This document shows, piece by piece, positions 12,601-57,905 of a DNA stretch of 64,000 bases. Positions within the stretch are counted from its first letter, which is position 1, and each line of letters starts with the position of its first letter. The notes under the pieces are model-generated. The model was not told the origin of the DNA, did no database searches, and worked only from the letters and a program-made list of their open reading frames with translations. Source of the stretch: Psococerastis gibbosa (Eukaryota > Arthropoda > Insecta > Psocodea > Psocidae); assembly GCA_963971405.1 (NCBI GenBank), contig OZ020489.1, positions 34,691,047 to 34,755,046 on the forward strand, read 5' to 3'. A program made the position numbers and the translations under genes.

Positions 12601-15600
12601 ATAATGCTCTCAGAGCCAAGGTTACAACACTATAAAATCTTAATTAAATTATGAACAGTTACATTGCACACAGGTAAATCTAAACTATAGATGATTTTTT
12701 ATCAAATCCCCATTACCTCTTAACTCTTGGATTATTGCTGGTTTCAACTCGAAGCTTAGCGCCATGTCCTTGCCAAAGAATTTGCTGCAGTCGTCCAAGA
12801 TCTCTGTCGTGGATCCATATCCTTATGTTGGACGGTTTCACAACAAGTCCTTGAAAAAAAAAAATCATGCATTGACCGAAAAAATAAATAAGTTACTTTA
12901 ACGATTAAACCAACATACAATACATGGCAGAGAATAAACGTCCACAGCGCAAGTTTTCAATGTATTTTTAGAACTAAATTTAACAGGCACACGAGGCATT
13001 AAGCTAACGCAATTGGTCCTATACATAGAATAAATATTTAATTATACCTATAATAATTTTATAATTTTATTTTAATTATAATATATTATACCTTTAACCT
13101 ATAAAATAAATAGGAAATCCTGCGTTTTGGACGGTTTTGTATGTTCAGAAATATTTTTAGTCACAAGATCCTCGAACTCGAAGCCAAGAGTCAATCACAA
13201 TGCTTACCAATATATAAATAAATAGACATAAACAAACAAATAATCTTTTATATATTACTAAACCTAGCTGGGTTAGGGCTACAAAGCCCTGCCTTCACTG
13301 AACTATATATATATATAGCAATGCCTGCCTTACACTCAACAAGGCTAAGGCCCTTATTCCACCGACGTCAATAGTCAAAATATTGCTGATATTGACGTGG
13401 TAGCAGACATTTTTACACTGTCTTTAATGTCTGCTACCACGTCAAACACGTCTATAGTGAACTATTGACGTCGGTGGAAGGAGCGCCTATGGATCTCGAG
13501 CCAACAATTTTTCGGGTGAAAGTCCGTGCCACAATACTACATGTCCTGACAAAATACCAGTAAACGTCCCAATAATAAAAGGCACTTACAAACCATATTG
13601 ACAACCGAACTGTCAGCGATAGCTATCAGCTCCACCCACTCTCTTTTGAAAGGGTAAACAATGGCGTAAATTCGACTGAATCGAGCTGCCCGGGTTGCCG
13701 TCACAACGGTCGGCTGAAATACGGTCAGTGGGAGGCACGCTACACGCTACATCGTGTAAACAAATACAAGGGCTAATGAGAAATCAATGCAAATCGATAG
13801 CAAAAGTTTTGCGACTAATAATTCAGCTGACTCCGCTCTGAACTAGTAATTCTATGTCAATTATTCTAAGGAGGGTAGGTGCGGTGCTTTTAACGAATTT
13901 GTTTATTGAATTAACATATCTGTCGGGCAGTTGGTAACACATAGGCTGCCGGCTATTTTTAAAGGGGGGGGGGGCATAGAATTTTCATGAACGTTAAAAA
14001 TGGAACATGAGAATCTGGGCCGATGGCTCATGGTGTAGAAGTCGACCGCAGCTGTTGACAAACGTTTGAAGATTCAGATCAACTACGTCCCATTTGCTCT
14101 GATTTCCTAGTTTCATTATCTGATCAGGGCCATTCGTCTTCTTCTTCATACGTCATCGTGGCAATGTTTACTTTTACCTAGACTGCTGCTCTGAAAGGGT
14201 AGTGCTCTTCCCAAACCTCAGGTTTTTCAACCAGGATGTTCTTCTTTTGCCGGGTTCCCTTGGATTATAACAAACAAAAGGCGATATGTTTTCTCATCAC
14301 ATGGCCGAAGTATGCTAGTTTACGTTTTTTAAATCATCAGCAGTAAAGCGGCTTCTGTATATCAATGCGCCTTAGGACCTCGGCATTAGGGACACGATCT
14401 CTCCAAGATATGCGCAAAATTCGTCTATATGCACATTTAAAATGCATTGATTCTGTCCTACATAGGTTACTCATGCCTCCATGCCATATAGAACGATTTG
14501 TAATGAAATACGTTAATTTCAGGGTAAAATAAAAATTTGAAAATCGTCACCTTGTTTTCCAGAGGTGAAGCGTTTCATGGCAGGGCTGGGTAGTTTGGGC
14601 TCCGGCAGCTCAATTTCCCCCGTTCTCTCCAGGTAGTAAGCAGCAGCTCTGCCCCGGGCGTCCATAACAGCAGGGTCGGCACCAGCCTGCACTAAAGTGT
14701 TCCACATCTCCTGCGCGTCCCCGCACACTCCCACGTAATGCAACGCTGTCTTCCCATCCCTATCCTTTAAAGACGCCGTCTGCGGATATTTTTTCAACAG
14801 CCACTGCAAAACAAAATGGGAGAAAATCGTAATTTTTAAGTGTAACTACTTGTAGCGGGCTCTTGAAAGGTGGATTGTTGAATTTTTCGAGTGAAGCAAG
14901 AGTAGAGAAACATAATATTAGCCTACATGCATACATAATATCTACCAAATTCAAGCCAAACTTTCTCTTCCAAACAGCGTTAATAAGTCATAATCTCCAT
15001 AAATACCTAGCTTTCTAACATTGCATGTTTAAGGGAAGGTATACTTTTATTTGTGCATATTTCACTAGCTGCCGTCCATGAAGAGACAAATTATTTTCAT
15101 TCCCCTTCATGCATATAATGGCCTTCAATCAAAAATACCTCTTTATGCTATCGACTGGCACTAATGCACGACACAAAGGTTGGGCCATGACTGCTTTTTT
15201 GGCGGATACTATAATTTGGTCTAATACATTAAATAATCCAAGCCAAGCAGATTTGTGGACTATTGGACGTTATCGACTCATGAACAACAACAACATTCTC
15301 TTTAGTAAAGTTTTTAAAAAATGCGGTTGTACGACAGTACGAAAACGATTGCTTGGGTTTTACCATAGAATAATATTTAATATATCCTCCGCCGTCACTT
15401 CTTTATCTCTATGGAGGTATAGCGACGATAGGCCGTTCAAACGCTCTGCGCCCATGATAGCCTGATGCGTGACTGCCGTAGGATGCGTGAAAATCTCGTT
15501 TAAAAAAAAATTGCCCATAGCTGGATCCATAGTGCTGAGGTACAGTATATGTTAATATGTTTAGATAACTGAGGTTCTAACTGGAATGGTTGAGGTAAAA

Positions 15601-18600
15601 AAAATAGAGGAAATTGTGTTACTACTGATTTTTCGATTAAATAATAGCATTTAAATTAGTCAATAATAAATAATTGAACAGTATCGATAATGTAGCGTAC
15701 ACGTACATATTGGAAATGGATGGGTTTTACTAATTCTAGTTATAGTACTTATAACAAGTATGGATACAATTCTAAGTTTTTGTTTTTGCTTGTTTATTTG
15801 AATGAAATACCACGACGTCACGAGTACCGTAATTTAATTTTTTCTGCCATAGAGGGTTTAAGACTTAGAGGACCCTCTTTTGTTTGTTTTGTTAATCGTC
15901 AGGTCGAGCCCGATCGGGGTTGAACTCATTTAGTGAAGCCCTGGGCTTCTTGTAGCACGGTTCACCTCCTAGTGTAACATCATGAGTAGAGGAAGAAGAA
16001 CGCAACGATCCACAGTAAAATACTTTAATAGTGACCGGTTTCGGATAAAATCCATCACCAGACTAACAACACATGAAAAAACGCCAGCTTATATACTACG
16101 GGAAGGGAGTGGGAGGTGGAGGCGGGGGTTGAGTATATAAATCGAGAAGTGGGGATACAGTTTGAAACATTATATCGTTCGTGAGAACCTCGTTATTCCT
16201 AATAGCCTTTCTAATCTCTAAGCTTTCTAACCTGTCTAATAGCCTACCTTTATTACAACAATGTAGAATTTTAAAATCTTCAAAATTACATGAGTGCGAG
16301 TTACTTGAGAGGTGGTCCGCAAAAGCTGAGGTACAGTCATTTTTACCGATCGCATTTTTATGCTCACGTAAGCGAAACTTAAAATTGCGTCCACTCAACC
16401 CCCGCCTCCACCTCCCACTCCCTTCCCGTAGTATATTAGCTGGCGTTTTTTCATGTGTTGTTAGTCTGATGATGGATTTTATCCGAAACCGGTCACTATT
16501 AAAGTATTTTACTGTGGATCATTGCGTTCTTCTTCCTCTACTCATGATGTTCTCCTAGTTCCACGAAGTCACCAAGGAAACTCTCACAAGGATCCTAGTG
16601 TAACTTAGTTTCACATTGTGTCCCTTTGGTTACGCCCTTTCTTTAGCTTAAGTTGCTTGGTCAGCCCCTCAACTAACTCGTTTTATAGTCTGGGTATATG
16701 GGCGGAAAAATAGTATTACACCATTGCCATTAACCTTTTACCAATAGATTAAGAAGCACTGTGTTTCCACAAACTATGACGATGGCTCACTTCTCACCTC
16801 TAAGAATTTTGCATTTTATGTAGACTTTCCAAAATACGTAGTCAGGATATAGTCCAGTTCTCTACCATCTGGAGCTGACTTAGGACAGTATACGCTGCAT
16901 AAAAAGGGAAAGGACTTACTTGCCAATCTCTTTTGGGTTGGTATACGCTACATTTATTTTAATGAAAAAAGGTGGCAAGCGTAGAATATCAACTCCATGT
17001 GGGGCAGACAGTTGTCATACTATATGAGGATAGCAGAAGATTGGAAGTACATACCTTGACTATTTCAGGTTGATCATTGTAGACGGCCTTGTGCAGCAGG
17101 CAGACACCAGCATGATCCTTGCACATCATGACGTTTTTCATGTACTCCTCATCCTCTCCGGGAGCAAGCAAGGGTAGAGTATCAACTCCATGTGGGACAG
17201 ACAGAACTGTCATATATGAGCATAGCATAAGTTTGCAAGTACACACCTTGACTATTTCAGGTTGATCATTGTAGACGGCCTTGTGCAGCAGGCCGACACC
17301 AGCATGATCCTTGCACATCATGACGTTTTTCATGTACTCCTCATCCTCTCCGGGAGCAAGCAAGGGTAGAGTATCAACTCCATGTGGGACAGACAGAACT
17401 GTCATATATGAGCATAGCATAAGTTTGCAAGTACATACCTTGACTATTTCAGGTTGATCATTGTAGACGGCCTTGTGCAGCAGGCCGACACCAGCATGAT
17501 CCTTGCCCATCATGACGTTTTTCATGTACTCCTCATCCTCTCCGTGAGCAAGCAAGGGTAGAGTATCAACTCCATGTGGGACAGACAGGACTGCCATATA
17601 TGAGCATAGCATAAGTTTGCAAGTACATACCTTGACTATTTCAGGTTGATCATTGTAGACGGCCTTGTGCAGCAGGCCGACACCAGCATGATCCTTGCAC
17701 ATCATGACGTTTTTCATATACTCCTCATCTTCCCCGGGAGCAAGCTTCTGTAACTGCTTGAGACTCCCTTTATTCACCGCATCATTCAGCTCATCTATCC
17801 GAGCCTGCATAAACAACGGAAATCAACATTTAGGCGCTCCCATCAACGGACTAGGTTCACATAGCCTTCGGAATAAGTTACAATTGCTCCAGAATGGGAG
17901 ATAGTGGGCTGTCTTTTTTTTAGCAGTCATAATCTTCAGACACCATTTTTACTGCCTGTCTGCATATAATGTTTTTTTTTTAATAATTATTTCTAGGGCG
18001 ACTGCCTACTTTCTAATTAATTAATCTTGCCCAAAATACAGGACATGTCCTTGTTTACAAAATATTTCGAAACCTATACTCTCTGAAACATAGATACCGT
18101 AATTCATCAAACTAGCCCCAGTTTTGGATAAGTATAAATGTTCCTAATGCCTAATTGTCCCCATGAGAGGCCTAAAGCCTTTTTCTTACCATGTAATTAG
18201 GAACTTGTTTAAGAAATGCTCGGACTTTAGGATCAGGAGCGTATTCCCCGATTAACTTGTGACCTTGACCTTCCAAGACTACTTGTTCCAGCTGGTCCAC
18301 GTCTCCTCCCCGCAGCCACTGTCTGATAACACTCGGGTTCATTTGTAACACTGCAAGGAAAAAAATTGAATTCAGATCGTATTTACTTGTATAGAACTTT
18401 CTTATCTTATCTTACTTTGCTATAGCTCAGACCCAATTTCATTTATAGCCTATTGAAAGGTGGCACTGTAGTGAGAATCGTTATGGGGCATGATCCGCAT
18501 GAAGCATTGGCATAATATTATGAAACTTAACCCTTCATATACGACGAGATTGCCTGCGCAGGCACGGCAGCAGAAGCCTTTCCTGATGACTTAAGAGTTA

Positions 18601-24990: not shown

Positions 24991-25384
24991 AAAACACGCG
25001 TGTCTGGAAGTAGGGCCTATATAGGCCTATTGTATAATGTCCGCATATGCAACTTTACTAAGTGAAATGTATTGTGAAAACGGTTTGAAACCTACAATAA
25101 ATAAATACTGTAAACACATATAGTACCTAATAGTATATCTTAAATTTACAGACATCCAATGCCCTAACAGTATACCTTAAATTTACGGATCTTTCGTAAT
25201 TTGCGGGATTTGCTACAGCCAAATTTAAATGAGTACTGGGATTTAGATTGGGGTGATCACAAAACCCCCATCCCTTGACAGACTACAGCAGTCTCTATAC
25301 CTCCGCTTATAACGATTGCCTTTGGCAAAATTGTTTTATTTAAATTAAGTTAATTATTCCATGTGTAGTACTATTTGTACTTTA

Positions 25385-28320
25385 TGTTGAACGCCGTCTA
25401 TCCCACCTCGGTGGACTGAATTCAAAAGACATCCGTGAAGTGTGGCAAGACATTACAACAGCGAAATATTTCCCTATAGTGCTCGGCTTGGTGGAAACAC
25501 ATTTGGACAAAAGTGTTTCATCTAATGACTATTATCTTAAAGGGTTCAACTCTGTTTTAGTTGAATCTAACTCACAACATACCGGAGGAGTGGTCCTGTA
25601 CATCAATGATGCTATCCCGTATAAAATCCTACAAAAGTTGTCTTATGACTACGAGTTCTGGTCAGTGCTAGTCTCGCTGGAGATAGCACGGAAGAAGTAT
25701 ATCATAGGGTTGTACTATCGTTCTCCGAACTCTCCTGTAGTGCGAAGTCTGTCTTACATGAAGAATTTGATGGCGAAGGCAGAAGAAATGTGTACAAATG
25801 ACCAAATAATTTTAATGGGAGACATGAATATCGACTTATTGAAACCAAATGAATATGAAGCGAGAAAACTGAATGAAGCTCTGAATGAATTTTTGCTCTA
25901 CCAAATAGTGGACAAACCAACGAGAGTTACAGCTACATCGCAAACGCTCATTGACCATGTACTCACTAACAAAGTTCCTTTACCAGTCCAAGTTTTGAAT
26001 GATCTAGTTCTGGCAGACCACAAGGTGGTTACAGTTCATGTACCGCACGAGAGTACGAGCAGAGAAACTTCCCCATGGGTCATTCGCGGGGCGCTGGATC
26101 CTGATGTTCTGGTTGCCATGATTGAAGAAAAGCGTGACGTCATCGAAGAATGTGCTGAAGATTACGACAAATTCTGTGAGGTTATCGGTCAAGTGGTGGA
26201 AGACTCTAGAAAAAATAACACTGTCCTGCGTGAAGATAAATATTGCAAGTATTTCAACTCCAAAGTGATTCATGCAAGAAAAGAAAAAATCCAAAATTAT
26301 CGCTTGTTCATGAGGTTGAAAGAGAGGGTGTCTGCTGGGGAGAGTTCAATAATCAATGAAATGAATGCGGCCTGGATTGACTTCAAAATTAAGAGAAATA
26401 AGTTTGTAGCAGAAATGAGACGTGCCAAAAGAGAATATTTTGAGAAAAGGATCAATACCGCATTCAATGATGGAAAGAAGCTGTGGCGGGTGCTAAAAGA
26501 AGCTCTCAACATTAACAACAGCACCCTTAAAAGAATTAGATCTGACAATAGAGTATTTGATGACAAGGAAGATATGGCCAATGAAATTAATGAATATATT
26601 GTGAAGAGTGTTGTTGAACTAAATGAACGAATACCTACTGTTGATGAAATTGAGATCAGAGAGAGTAGAGGTCCCTACTTAGAAGACTTTACGTTACCCA
26701 GTGAAGATGAACTGTACAGCATTGTTAAGGAGCTCAAGGGTAAAGACCAGACACAACCCAGCGTCGAAGTCCTGAAGCTGTGCTGGGATAAGATTGGACC
26801 TAGCATCCTGAAAATAGTGCATCTGTCGTTGAGCAGTGCGACTGTTCCCAACCTTCTGAAAGTTGCTGCTGTCACACCTATACCAAAAGTCGCCGGTTCA
26901 ATTGAGGTTGCAGATATACGTCCCATCAATGTGCTACCTACCATGGAAAAATTGCTTGAAAAAGTTGTGCATAAACAAATTCTACAATTTATTGAAGAAA
27001 AGAACATTCTTAGCAGCTGTCAATCGGGCTTTCGTCAACGCCATTCCACGGAATCTGCCTTACAGTTAGTCATTGAAGATTGGAGAAGTGCAGTCGTCGA
27101 CCAGGACCACGTGATGGCAGTTTTCATCGATCTTTTGAAACAATAGATCGTACAGTGCTCCTAAATAAGCTTTGGCGAATGGGATTCAGAGGTGATGTTC
27201 ACAAATGGCTAACTAACTACCTCAACAACAGACAGCAATTTGTTAAAGTTGGTGAAAAAAAGTCAAGGTGCTTAAATGTCGATATAGGTGTGGCCCAAGG
27301 CAGCTGTATTGGTCCATTGTTGTTTGTTCTTTTTATCAATGACCTGCCAGATGTCCTACAGCACTGCAGCATACATATGTTCGCTGATGACACGTTGCTG
27401 TATTGTCGAGGAGCTGACGTCACACAGTTATCAAGAAAAATGAATGAAGAGCTCCAAGTAGTTGTAAAGTGGTTAGCTGCAAATAAGTTGAGTGTGAATG
27501 CTAAAAAGTCTAAAGTTATGATTGTCAGCAAATCTCAGACATCAATACCACCACCTACAATCACTATGAACGGCGAAGCCCGTGAAATTGTCGACGAATT
27601 TAAATACTTGGGAGCCGTCATCGACAAGAAATTCACGTTCGACATGCATTTCAAAAGAATTGTCAGCAAGTTGAGGCAAAAACTGGGGCTCCTTAGACGT
27701 GTACGGTACGCCCTACCCCGTAAGACCAAAGAGCTGATCTATAAGGCACTTATTAAACCACACATAAACTACTGCAGCACACTGTTGAGCTATGCCCCTT
27801 CAAGTGCAATCCAAGAGATGCAAGTCGTTCTTAACACGGGCTTGCGAGCTATACTAAATGCACCACAGGACACTCGTGTCACTGACATGTTAAGTGAGCT
27901 CAAACTGACGTCAGTACAAGACCAGGTCATATTGGATACTTTGTCGTTCATACACAAAATTCTGATCGGTCATCTCCCAGAGTATCTACGAGACAAAGTT
28001 CAATTCTTCGGAGGCGTGAATGCATACAACACCAGACAGCATAATAGCATCTACCTGGAGCGGGCTATGTCAGAATTCCAAAGGCGCGGAATCTTCTATT
28101 CGTGGTTATCGAGATATAATAATCTACGCCGTGAAATTAAAGACAGTGCGACCGTCAAACAATTTCGCAAAAGACTAGAATGCTCCCTCCGGCAACATTA
28201 GAACTAAGTGCTAGTTTGAAGTGAATCTATCAAGAACAACCATTAGCATTCGTGCTACTACCCATACAACAACAACAACAACAACATATGTAAGAAATAA
28301 ACGAAACTAAACTAACCAAT
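25385..28320 (+). mobile_element. CR1/L2-Jockey-like LINE, 5'-truncated, nearly intact ORF2
   Basis: The ORF runs from about 25386 to 27146 and continues in another frame to 28201. APE endonuclease motifs: GLVETHLD, GGVVLYIND, ILMGDMNIDLL, TLIDHVLTN, LADHKVV. Reverse transcriptase motifs: ADIRPINVLPTMEKLLEKVV, SGFRQRHSTESALQ, GVAQGSCIGPLLFVLFINDL, IHMFADDTLLYC, then a LINE-type C-terminus (INYCSTLLSYAPSS, YNTRQ). One small deletion near 27140, at the AFETIDR box, shifts the frame and removes about three residues. The first endonuclease motif and any ORF1 are missing. After the stop come 120 bp with a CAACAACAACAAC run and the tail ATGTAAGAAATAAACGAAAC. One break in 2.8 kb suggests a young copy. 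Confidence 0.85.
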
Positions 28321-40600: not shown

Positions 40601-41546
40601 TAGATGCTGACCGGCTGTCACAACCCCTCCATTTTTCCCCGAGTAAGATCACATGTAGGCTACAGTGAAGGGGGGATCAGCTTTACGTTTTTATAGCCGT
40701 CTGGTGTAATTGCCAATTAGAGAAGCAGCCTGCCTTATTTTTTTTTTTTAATATCACGCCTGTGGGGCCGGCTCTATCTATCTAGTGAGGCCTAGCCATG
40801 GGTCCCTGTCTATCTTTATCTGTAATCGGCATACGAGGCTTCCCTCTTCTCCTCTCACCGTGACCGTGCCATTCAAGGCGCCTTTCACTAGTAGCTAATC
40901 TCAATATCTCATAAGCTATGTCTTCTTCATCTTCGTCGTCCCTACAGCTTGTATTGTATTATATATATATTTATATATTATATATTGCTTGTATTGGGGT
41001 GAGCATCCACCTCTCTTCCGACATCAAGTGTTCCAATGAATTCTTCGGGCTTGGTTTTTTCCATCTTCTTCTATCTCGACGTTTGTTCTCTTTCTACAGA
41101 TCACCCATCAGTTATGTACTATTAATTATACTTAAATGTCGGAAACCCCTGCACTGCGTTCCCTCTACGCAAATCACTGGTTTTGGCAACATACCTTAAT
41201 GTCAAGGTGCGCAACGTTGAGGGAGTGCAGATACTCGATGGCACCCATGATCTCCCGCATGAACCTTCTCGCGGTGACCTCATCCGGTACCTCGTCCCTG
41301 TCCAGCAGGGCCTGCAGCTCGCCCCCCGGCGCCAGTTCCAGCAGTAGGATCATCTCTGTCGCCGTCTCGAACACTTGGTACAAGTTCACTATCCGTCCGC
41401 AAGGGGCGCATGCTTCCAGCACAGCTATCTCATGGAGAATCTCATATCGCAGATCCGTCGATCTTCTCCGCTTCTTCAAGTATTTGGCGGCGAATTGGAG
41501 GCCGTTGACTCGATGCCGACATCTTCGGACGGTAGCATATTTGCCC
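36914..41546 (-). CDS. Drak: DRAK/STK17-type Ser/Thr kinase (5' partial)
   Basis: Gene-level entry; exons 41546-41195, 39963-39837, 39215-38987, 38554-38391, 37650-36914, all in phase, 535 residues plus a missing N-terminus. Death-associated kinases of this group phosphorylate myosin light chain and act in apoptosis and cytoskeletal control; Drosophila Drak is the nearest I recall. Seen: GKYATVRRC (end of Gly loop), FAAKYLKKRRR (catalytic Lys), ILHEIAVLE, LLLELAPGGELQALL, catalytic loop HLDIKPQNLV, CDFGISR, GTPDYVAPEVL, and the telling GDTKQETFCNIS and FPDDLFEGIS. The C-terminal half is Ser/Pro-rich with an acidic Ser run (SSETSSITSDSISEMSVDSS) and a basic end. The exon with the start codon and Gly-loop beginning was not found upstream of 41546. 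Confidence 0.9.
38275..38380. mobile_element. Family P MITE beside DRAK splice donor
   Basis: Ends GGCGGCGTTTCCACCGACC and AAACGCCGTC, flanked on both sides by TAT; the core has GACGTGGTAGCAGACATT. It starts 10 bp inside the intron after the exon at 38554-38391. Confidence 0.7.
38391..38554 (-). CDS. Drak: DRAK exon: end of kinase lobe
   Basis: Acceptor ttacttgcag/A. Reads TRLTARECIEHEWFD (subdomain XI), then TPTTPTPDCPTLEVED. Donor AAAG/gtaagt. Confidence 0.85.
38987..39215 (-). CDS. Drak: DRAK exon: APE to subdomain X
   Basis: Acceptor ttttcag/CA. Reads APEVLNYEAISLATDMWSIG, VLLTGCSPFGGDTKQ and DLMRRLMVKDPR. Donor CAAG/gtaaat. Confidence 0.9.
39330..39490 (-). repeat. SINE family A copy
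   Basis: Minus-strand copy with AATTCAATGAATGTATCGG, CCTCTTCGGTCGCCTCTG, CACCGATCGCATGATGTG and the box A-like end near 39470. In a DRAK intron. Confidence 0.6.
39837..39963 (-). CDS. Drak: DRAK exon: PQN, DFG and activation segment
   Basis: Acceptor gttttcag/CCC. Reads PQNLVLTGEYPDCDVKLCDF, GISRYVGENDDIREILGTPD. Donor GTTG/gtaagc. Confidence 0.9.
41195..41546 (-). CDS. Drak: DRAK first recognised exon: N-lobe
   Basis: Acceptor cgttacag/G, so an upstream exon exists. Holds GKYATVRRCRHRVNG, FAAKYLKKRRRSTDLRYEIL, then HSLNVAHLDIK. Donor AAG/gtatgt. Confidence 0.9.
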
Positions 41547-41854
41547 CTGTAACGAAAGAAAATTTTGATTAGGTGTGGAGGATGAAGGCAGAGAAACTTG
41601 CCAAAGCCACGATGGGAAAAATTTTACGTTGAGACAAATGGGAAACTGAAGTTGATGGCGTCAAAGGGCGGGATAGCGCCTTTAGCCAATCTGATTTTGT
41701 GGATGAAATACCAAATTACGTTGTGTTCAAGACGCAACCTAGAGTTAAGAAGAACCCAGCTGTCCAAGAGGCAGCTTGCGAGACAGGTGAATCCCTCTGC
41801 TTAGAATTTTGATGATATAGGCTCAGTTAAACTGAAGACTTTTTTTTTCTTTAT

Positions 41855-44007: not shown

Positions 44008-44765
44008 GTAAACTGGGGCTTCTTTGGCAGAATGCATGGGAAAAGGTTGATTTCTACTGGGTTACACCGACTTGTAGTCGTATCAGTCTCAAATAGTGTA
44101 CCGTAGCTAACGTCAGATCATTTGCCTTACACGGACCTACAGTACCGTAAGCTGGGGTTACTTTGGCCCATAGCAATGCCTGGAAAACGTTGATTTCTAA
44201 GTATCAGACAAACTTTAAATGAAGATCTTGCGAGTAGACTTGTAAAGTAAACTGTTAAATTTAAAGTGTGCTGGAGGGGTATTAACTACCCTGTATTTAG
44301 CATGCTAAACCGAGGAGTTTTCCATGGGGTTCTCTAAATCCACCGTAAATGTAAATTTAAACTTGTGTAAACAGCCTAGACGTTAGCTACGGTACACAGT
44401 TTGAGACAGATACGACAAACGAGAACGCGGTGTAACCCAGTAAAAATCAACCTTTCTCCGAGCATTACATTGAGCCAAAGTAACCCCAGTTTACGGTAGT
44501 ATAGGACAAATGATTTGTCGTTTGCTACGGTACACAGTTTGAGACAGATACGACAAACGAGAACGCGGTGTAACCCAATAAAAATCAACCTTTTTCCGAG
44601 CATTACATTGAGCCAAAGTAACCCCAGTTTACGGTAGTATAGGACAAATGATTTGTCGTTTGCTACGGTACACAGTTTGAGACAGATACGACAAACAACG
44701 AGACCGCGGTGTAACCCAGTTGCAGCCGCATTCTTGCAATGTCGTGCATTAACTTTCCCTAGGCT
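44008..44765. repeat. Dispersed and tandem repeat, 138-bp unit
   Basis: The phrase GGTACACAGTTTGAGACAG starts at 44391, 44529 and 44667, a 138-bp period. Units also hold ACCCCAGTTTACGGTAGTAT. Related single units, reversed, stand at 44008-44175 (ACCGTAAACTGGGGCTTCTT). No coding content. Confidence 0.65.
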
Positions 44766-46914: not shown

Positions 46915-47110
46915 CGTAAGAATGTCAGAGGACTGCATGTTGAACAAAATGTAGAAAGCAAGCCGGACGGGAAGAAGGCTGCAGGGAAGTCCACGAAACC
47001 GCTGGAAGAACGAACTAGAAACCGACCTCCTAGTCCGTAGATGGTAGAGCGTCTTACAAAACCGGGATGATTGGAGGATGGATATTGAGCAGGAGCTGTA
47101 GAGCCAGAAG
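46915..47110 (+). mobile_element. RTE-like LINE C-terminal fragment
   Basis: One frame reads GRRLQGSPRNRWKNELETDL and, in a second frame, NRDDWRMDIEQEL, the GRP..RW..(L)..D...R..W end of RTE-type ORF2. Confidence 0.5.
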
Positions 47111-48050
47111 AAGAATATGAAGACGTACTTAAGTGATGGTCGGTTCGGGACAGAGGACCGACGACCAAACGGTTCGCTCCCACCGATTGTCAGTATTTTC
47201 AATTATGTTCTCGTCCTCGTTTTGAGCCGGTCTTCGGTCGGCATCCGTCACTAAGTCATGCTCACCTGCATGGAATTCTGCCTCTCTAACTATACAAGAC
47301 AGATGGAGGATGGTTGTTCAGCAGGCCAAAGCCCCTCAACAGCAGTAGAGCCAGAAGAAGAATAAGAAGACGTGCTTTAGTGATGGTCGGTTCGGGACGG
47401 AGGACCGACGACCAAACGGTTCGCTCCCACCGATTGTCAGTATTTTCATGTTCTTGTCCTCGTTTTGAGCCGGTCTTCGGTCGGCATCCGTCACTAAGTC
47501 ATGCTCACCTGCATGGAATTCTGCCTCTCTAACTATACAAGACAGATGGAGGATGGTTGTTCAGCAGGGCAAAGTCCCTCAAGAGCTGTAGAGCCAGAAG
47601 AAGTAGAAGAATAAGAAGACGTGCTTTAGTGATGGTCGGTTCGGGACGGAGGACCGACGAAGAAACGGTTCGCTCCCACCGATTTTCTGTGTTTTCTATG
47701 ATGTTCGGCTTGGTCCTCGTTTTGAGCCGGTCTTCTGTCCGAATCCGTCACTAAGTCATGCTCACCTGCATGGAATTCTGCCTCTCCAACTATACAAGAC
47801 AGATGGAGGATGGTTGTTCAGCAGGGCAAAGTCCCTCAAGAGCTGTAGAGCCAGAAGAAGTAGAAGAATAAGAAGACGTGCTTTAGTGATGGTCGGTTCG
47901 GGACGGAGGACCGACGAAGAAACGGTTCGCTCCCACCGATTTTCTGTGTTTTCTATGATGTTCGGCTTGGTCCTCGTTTTGAGCCGGTCTTCTGTCCGAA
48001 TCCGTCACTAAGTCATGCTCACCTGCATGGAATTCTGCCTCTCCAGCTGT
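47040..48050 (+). repeat. Tandem repeat, about 242-258 bp unit, four copies
   Basis: CCTCTCTAACTATACAAG or its variant starts at 47281, 47523, 47781 and 48038. Units share GATGGTCGGTTCGGGACGG and CGTCACTAAGTCATGCTCAC. The first unit runs straight out of the LINE end above, so the array may come from a LINE 3' region. Two middle units are almost identical. Confidence 0.7.
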
Positions 48051-48473
48051 ACAAAACACGGTGCCTTGTTAGCCATCCACTCCAGCAGAATATCTGTCAG
48101 TGCGGACAATAGCTAAGGCGAAATAGCGGAATGCTGGCATGCCGTGCGCACATAGGCTGGAGGCGGGGTTATTGAACCTGCTCATCGCGCCTATGTAGCG
48201 GTAAGGGTCACACCTCAACCGCCCAGGATAATCTGATAAAATTTCTTGAAACTGTGATCTATGGTTTGCACTTGTCTAGGATGTAATCATCTATGCGGAA
48301 TTGACTAGTATATGATGGGGTTCCGAAGATGACCTGTGAATAGCCGCATTCCTTTGTTATCCGATACCATCCAGCATGATTTGGATGGCACGAGAATCCT
48401 GAAGACGGCAGTCGCGTCCCGAAGAAGGAGAGTCGATTCTTTTAATTTGGTGTAAAGGAATATGTCGACTTCG

Positions 48474-57043: not shown

Positions 57044-57905
57044 AGCTACAGTTTGTCACCGGATTGATTTGTTATTAGCCACGTCTTTGACGACGGAATC
57101 AATCTACCACACGTACTACAGACCTATGTAAGCAACTGTACGTTTACTTCCATAGCATACCAAGAAAATCGAACAAAACGTTGAACTCGAACCGACAACC
57201 TCTCAGGCGAAGGCCGAAGTCTTTGCAGCTACGCTACAATTTGTCACCGGATTGATTTGATATTAGCCCCGTCTTTGGCGACGGAATCAATCTACCACAC
57301 GTACTACAGACCTACGCAAGCAACTCTACGTTTACTTCCATAGCATACCAAGAAAATCTAACAAGACGTTGAACTCGAACCGACAATCTCTCAGGCGTAG
57401 GACGAAGTCCTTACAGCATATTCTAACAGCTTGTCACCAGATTGATTTGTCATTAGCCAATTATTCTTCTGCAACGGAATCAATCTACCACATGTGCGAC
57501 AGACCTATGTAAGCAGCTTTTCGTTTCCCTCCATAGCATACCAAGAAAATCCAACAAGACGTTGAACTCGAACCGACCACCTCTCAGGCGTAGGCCGATG
57601 TCTTTGCAGCTACGCTACAGTTTGTCACCGGATTGATTTGTTATTAGCCACGTCTTTGGCGACGGAATCAATCTACCACACGTACGACAGACCTATGAAA
57701 GCAGCTCTACGTTTCTTACCATAGCATACCAAGAAAATCCAACAAGAACTCGAACCGACAACCTCCCAGGCGTAGGCCGAAGTCTTAACAGCTACGCTAC
57801 ATATTCTAACAGCTTGTCACCTGATTGATTTGTTATTAGCCAATTATTCTTTTGCGACGGAATCAATCTACCACACGTGCGACAGACCTATGCGAGCAAC
57901 TTTCC
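57044..57905. repeat. Satellite-like tandem array, about 190 bp, 4.5 copies
   Basis: TTGTCACC marks units at 57053, 57241, 57431, 57622 and 57814. Shared words: GATTGATTTG, CGACGGAATCAATCTACCAC, GCATACCAAGAAAATC. Each unit has a tRNA-like part on the minus strand (GGTTGTCGGTTCGAGTTCAA with a box A-like GTAGCGTAGCTG). Copies differ at many sites, so the array is not very recent. Confidence 0.75.

Follow-up and report, generated by a model that had tools for sequence, protein, structure and literature searches.

A tandemly repeated exon end carries four predicted, frame-keeping splice donors in a probable ankyrin-repeat gene of Psococerastis gibbosa

Coding tandem repeats are a known system, among them ankyrin repeats that expand by duplication, and internal tandem duplications across an exon-intron border occur in human disease genes. 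The locus described here, on the minus strand of a 64-kb window (the whole stretch of DNA that was analysed, 64,000 nucleotides), resembles both: as in ankyrin-repeat expansion, a piece coding for ankyrin sequence is multiplied in tandem, and as in the disease genes, an exon end and the start of the intron behind it are repeated side by side. It differs from the former in that its unit measures 64 codons, intron sequence included, and not ~33, and in that the unit holds a splice donor, so that how many copies the protein contains would depend on splicing; it differs from the latter in that four copies stand in the reference sequence. Alternative tandem 5' splice sites likewise place several donors before one acceptor and give in-frame length variants, which at this locus are potential ones, but here, unlike there, the four predicted donors are repeated together with their surroundings in 192-nt steps. 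In intron gain by AGGT tandem duplication, an AG/GT segment is likewise duplicated in tandem and, as described in PMC3443670, the duplicated exonic segment provides a new donor and a new acceptor, whereas the present array copies a boundary between exon and intron that already existed, without giving rise to a good acceptor. Duplications in tandem that span an exon border belong to a known kind of event, as does competition between donors; among titles and the opening lines of abstracts, we found no naturally repeated donor array like this four-step, in-frame one.

The array (Table 1) has a period of 192 nt and 4.0 copies with 95% matches (TRF score 1382), and it is not attributable to chance. 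Each unit takes in 114 nt from the end of the exon 17804-17631, the donor and 79 nt from the start of the intron, the exon and intron parts having one base in common at the junction. The original prediction had placed four donors exactly 192 bp apart, and this spacing was recovered between GTCAAGGT sites on the minus strand, whose last exon bases lie at 17631 (donor A), 17439 (B), 17247 (C) and 17055 (D). A 64-codon unit free of stops had also been described, and each of the three full units indeed yields 64 residues; the single good acceptor upstream of the donors was found as well (...tttatgcag/GCTCGG, with the exon starting at 17804).

Table 1. Features of the array and of the exons next to it, in positions of the window.
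Feature	Position	Strand	Remarks
Upstream exon, 161 nt	18190..18350	-	LQMNPSVIRQWLRGGD...VPNYM; acceptor ttgcag; donor ATG/gtaaga
Exon with repeated end, up to donor A, 174 nt, whole codons	17631..17804	-	acceptor ttatgcag at 17805-17812
Tandem array, period 192, four copies	16975..17745	-	TRF
Exon-part copy 1, 114 nt	17631..17744	-	donor A, AAG/GTATGT
Inner unit 1: intron part and exon-part copy 2	17439..17630	-	donor B, AAG/GTATGT
Inner unit 2: intron part and exon-part copy 3	17247..17438	-	donor C, AAG/GTGTGT
Inner unit 3: intron part and exon-part copy 4	17055..17246	-	donor D, AAG/GTATGT
Outer intron part past donor D, 80 nt	16975..17054	-	in-frame stop 16989-16991
Possible weak 99-nt in-frame exons	17439..17537; 17247..17345; 17055..17153	-	acceptor GAGAG/GAT
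Next exon, completes ankyrin repeat	14551..14803	-	WLLKKYPQTASLKDRDGKTALHY...

The four donors are near-equal in predicted strength. Pairing with the U1 5' end amounts to -6.3 kcal/mol for A, B and D, where GTATGT follows the exon end, and to -5.7 kcal/mol for C, where GTGTGT does, which makes them the best four among the 54 GT sites of the array. Over the 586 GT sites from 18360 to 7900, they take ranks 19-21 and 29, and better pairing is found elsewhere in the array's intron, e.g., at site 16798 (-9.7). By predicted U1 pairing, several donors of usable strength are present before one acceptor, as in alternative 5' splice sites, and every donor choice keeps the frame, a property that is common at such sites and not required of them. 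The minus-strand frame is stop-free for 277 codons (17822-16992) and ends soon past donor D; the joins of donors A, B, C and D to the next exon contain 0 stops and give, over three exons, 195, 259, 323 and 387 residues, respectively.

Near-equal donors and four open joins both speak for a reading in which all four donors are substantially used, adding 0, 64, 128 or 192 residues that would include translated intron. The open frame is less striking than it appears, because ~7-11% of duplications of this kind would be open by chance, which counts against that reading. We obtained this range by multiplying the stop-free share by one third, the chance that a length is a multiple of three; when the 81-nt intron part (27 codons) was dinucleotide-shuffled, 1603 of 5000 sequences lacked a stop in a given frame, as did 467 of 2090 overlapping 81-nt windows from elsewhere in the intron.

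The gene that carries the array probably encodes an ankyrin-repeat protein of animal origin, and the gene content suggests an arthropod. Via donor A, an uninterrupted reading runs through nine successive exons from 18350 to 7926, whose boundaries we placed by eye so as to agree with splice signals and frame. At this join, ...HKAVYNDQPEIVK runs into WLLKKYPQTASLKDRDGKTALHY (...PEIVK to WLLKKYPQ...) and forms an intact ankyrin repeat, which resembles ...TQIIKYLGGRFPETLTATDKNGRTALHY in the third module of the gene. The donor-A reading scores 37.2 bits against Pfam Ank_2 (residues 60-159), above the curated cut-off of 27.3, and the donor-B reading scores no lower, at 41.9 bits, a result that again favours use of more than the first donor. 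Donors B to D would add their 64, 128 or 192 residues inside one ankyrin repeat and split its second half, which argues against their substantial use, although one whole repeat would survive, because the last copy again leads into WLLKKYPQ. Nor does size exclude a 750-nt exon ending at D, since the same gene model holds an exon of 1017 nt. The gene seems to have three related modules, judging from tblastn of the first module against the window, which returned pieces at 12847-12719 (E 3.6e-5), 9866-9720 (E 1.9e-7) and 8060-7929 (E 2e-6). A weak match to the same module lies at 471-638 on the minus strand (E 0.26) and is possibly a related module or gene beyond the guanido-kinase-like reading described below, or chance. 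The 271-residue reading matched nothing in a scan of viral contigs, and its single-sequence AlphaFold2 model was uninformative (mean pLDDT 36.3).

We found the choice among donors to be best explained, by a modest preponderance of probability, by a tandemly duplicated exon end whose first donor is dominant and whose remaining copies form a tolerated, fairly ordinary tandem repeat. Under this account, a tandem duplication would have taken in the 3' exon end, the donor and ~79 nt from the start of the intron, and unequal exchange or gene conversion would later have raised the number of copies to four. Splicing would occur mostly at donor A (17631), with an ordinary ankyrin repeat as the outcome, and leave the other three copies within the intron as decoy donors. 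As none of the 64 codons of the unit is a stop, slipping to B, C or D would lengthen the protein rather than truncate it and should hence be tolerable, and this tolerance may explain the persistence of the array.

Donor A is judged dominant because equal tandem donors favoured the first one in reporters: in a large, designed splice-reporter library in human K562 cells, such donors were used on a first-come-first-served basis (PMC6783452). The same study reports that sequence context away from the sites can break the first-donor rule and mentions earlier conflicting evidence; moreover, its result comes from human cells, and the variable regions of its reporters measure 147-162 nt, shorter than one unit here (192 nt). 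Several observations count against dominance of the first donor, namely that U1 pairing is no weaker for B and D than for A, that the donor-B reading has the higher ankyrin score, and that exon-part copy 1 shows 0 amino-acid differences from the common state of copies 2-4, set against 18-19% divergence in the intron part. This last contrast indicates that the copies could have been translated, and it, too, supports a substantial use of all four donors. The claim of a choice among four donors thus stands as regards the anatomy, the in-frame intron part and the open joins; it is weakened by an open frame that is not improbable, by the nature of the differences among the inner units (four of six change an amino acid, so that no constraint is visible at the variable sites) and by the reporters' preference for the first donor. 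Taken together, we consider substantial use of all four donors possible but rather unlikely. More doubtful still is the idea that two things at once determine how many repeats the protein has, namely the unit copy number of the individual and the donor picked, with intron turned into protein in 64-residue steps.

With four near-identical, frame-keeping donors in their native context, the locus offers a natural experiment in spliceosomal choice between equal donors and in the tolerance of tandem duplications that cross an exon border. Use of several donors would reveal a simple route from intron sequence to protein; use of the first alone would make the array an ordinary tandem repeat that begins at an exon end.

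The unit had been said to lack an acceptor, and we indeed found no good one in it, yet the statement was too strong, as each unit contains a weak in-frame candidate, GAGAG/GATGAG. In a listing of AG sites, this candidate stands behind a pyrimidine-rich stretch, with first exon bases at 17537, 17345 and 17153. Each inner copy might then be a 99-nt cassette exon of 33 residues whose acceptor was created at the duplication junction, and the pyrimidine-rich stretch together with exactly 33 in-frame codons in 3/3 inner copies agrees with this, as does the gain in Pfam Ank_2 score upon insertion of one cassette (37.2 bits before, 56.9 bits after). Against it, GAGAG/GAT has a G at -3, which is seen in 0/9 acceptors of the gene model, and a further AG lies 2 nt upstream, use of which, tried for copy 2 only, leads to a stop after five codons. 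In a control that varied the insert length (28, 30-36 and 38 residues, on a shortened stretch), inserts of 30, 31, 32 and 38 residues (73.1, 71.6, 64.6 and 67.6 bits, respectively) outscored that of 33 (58.6 bits), showing that 33 is nothing special; the 33-residue register was accordingly dropped as an argument for cassette exons. Given the weak acceptor and the outcome of this length control, we attach little weight to cassette exons and regard them as very improbable.

The copies could also be read as successive splice points, through recursive splicing at AAG/GT or as 192-nt introns running from one AAG/GT to the next, as every copy contains AG/GT, the motif of intron gain by tandem duplication (PMC3443670). 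The 19 nt before each of the four AAG/GT sites have a pyrimidine fraction of 0.47, with an AG 5 nt upstream, so that the copied AG is not an acceptor made usable by a pyrimidine tract, as such intron gain would entail. We rejected recursive splicing and exact 192-nt introns, no pyrimidine tracts being present before AAG/GT, and give successive splice points virtually no credence.

We found the inside and the edges of the array to differ in divergence. The three pairs of inner units show 4, 6 and 2 differences over 192 nt (1-3%), at variable sites that are few, six in all, with 4 changes of an amino acid and 2 silent ones. Between exon-part copy 1 and copies 2-4 there are 3 fixed differences in 114 sites, every one synonymous and located among the first 9 codons out of 38 (P 0.01, the cut being chosen post hoc). 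The intron part past donor D is separated from its three counterparts by 14-15 differences in 79 sites (18-19%) and one gap. Divergence is hence unequal between exon and intron parts (Fisher P 0.0004), and for copy 2, if it were free to change, ~10 differences would be expected on its branch, three or fewer having a P of 0.007. The array had been called young on account of its near-identical copies; this holds for the inner expansion, where units are 1-3% apart, and does not hold for the outer intron edge with its 18-19% difference and indel. Old edges around a near-identical inside fit an expansion by exchange within an older duplication. Homogenisation of the inside by exchange between copies, with the edges left old, is favoured only modestly, on the grounds that the silent differences of copy 1 cluster in its first 9 codons. 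Alternatively, the copies could have been maintained as protein for a time, with no constraint at present, since exon-part copies 2 and 4 carry later amino-acid changes. All counts of differences among the copies are small, and they decide only weakly between exchange and protein constraint.

Near-identical tandem repeats are prone to assembly error, and the array might for this reason be an artefact or have a copy number other than the true one. Six sites tell the three inner units apart, and both outer edges are unlike the inside, indicating that several distinct copies were seen; we consider an assembly error distinctly unlikely, though less so than cassette exons.

Short tandem arrays are common in the window, as three more were found by TRF besides the 192-nt one: at 44381-44718 (138 nt), 47109-48058 (257 nt) and 57045-57901 (188 nt). 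Two neighbouring copies of the 257-nt array are 98% alike, and the copy before them, 68% alike in ungapped register at a spacing of 243, contains an indel, as that spacing and match imply. The intron of the 192-nt array holds an inverted pair of 166-nt arms at 15969-16558, 96% complementary and 258 nt apart, which is probably a mobile element; the reading inside it (16096-16518) has no Pfam match.

Beyond the ankyrin modules and on the same strand (minus), a 570-codon frame at 6911-5199 matches ATP:guanido phosphotransferase domains in Pfam and arginine kinases in the PDB. The catalytic Glu and Cys of arginine kinase are presumably those in the NEEDH and FCPTNLG stretches. Aligned with arginine kinase 2j1q, the reading has NVQEH for NEEDH and SRPACLG for FCPTNLG, which suggests that this guanido-kinase-like domain lacks both residues and is inactive. 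Among titles and the opening lines of abstracts, no description of a gene combining ankyrin and guanido-kinase domains was found. Two long reading frames occupy 25344-28201 on the plus strand, and the first of them, 25344-27146, with endonuclease and reverse-transcriptase Pfam matches of which some fall under the curated cut-off, is by the look of it a non-LTR retrotransposon. A tRNA-like match at 821-893 on the minus strand (31.3 bits, just over the Rfam cut-off of 29) is possibly part of a SINE, and a reading at 41174-41623, also on the minus strand, contains a protein kinase domain (Pkinase, 91.7 bits) and probably belongs to a separate gene.
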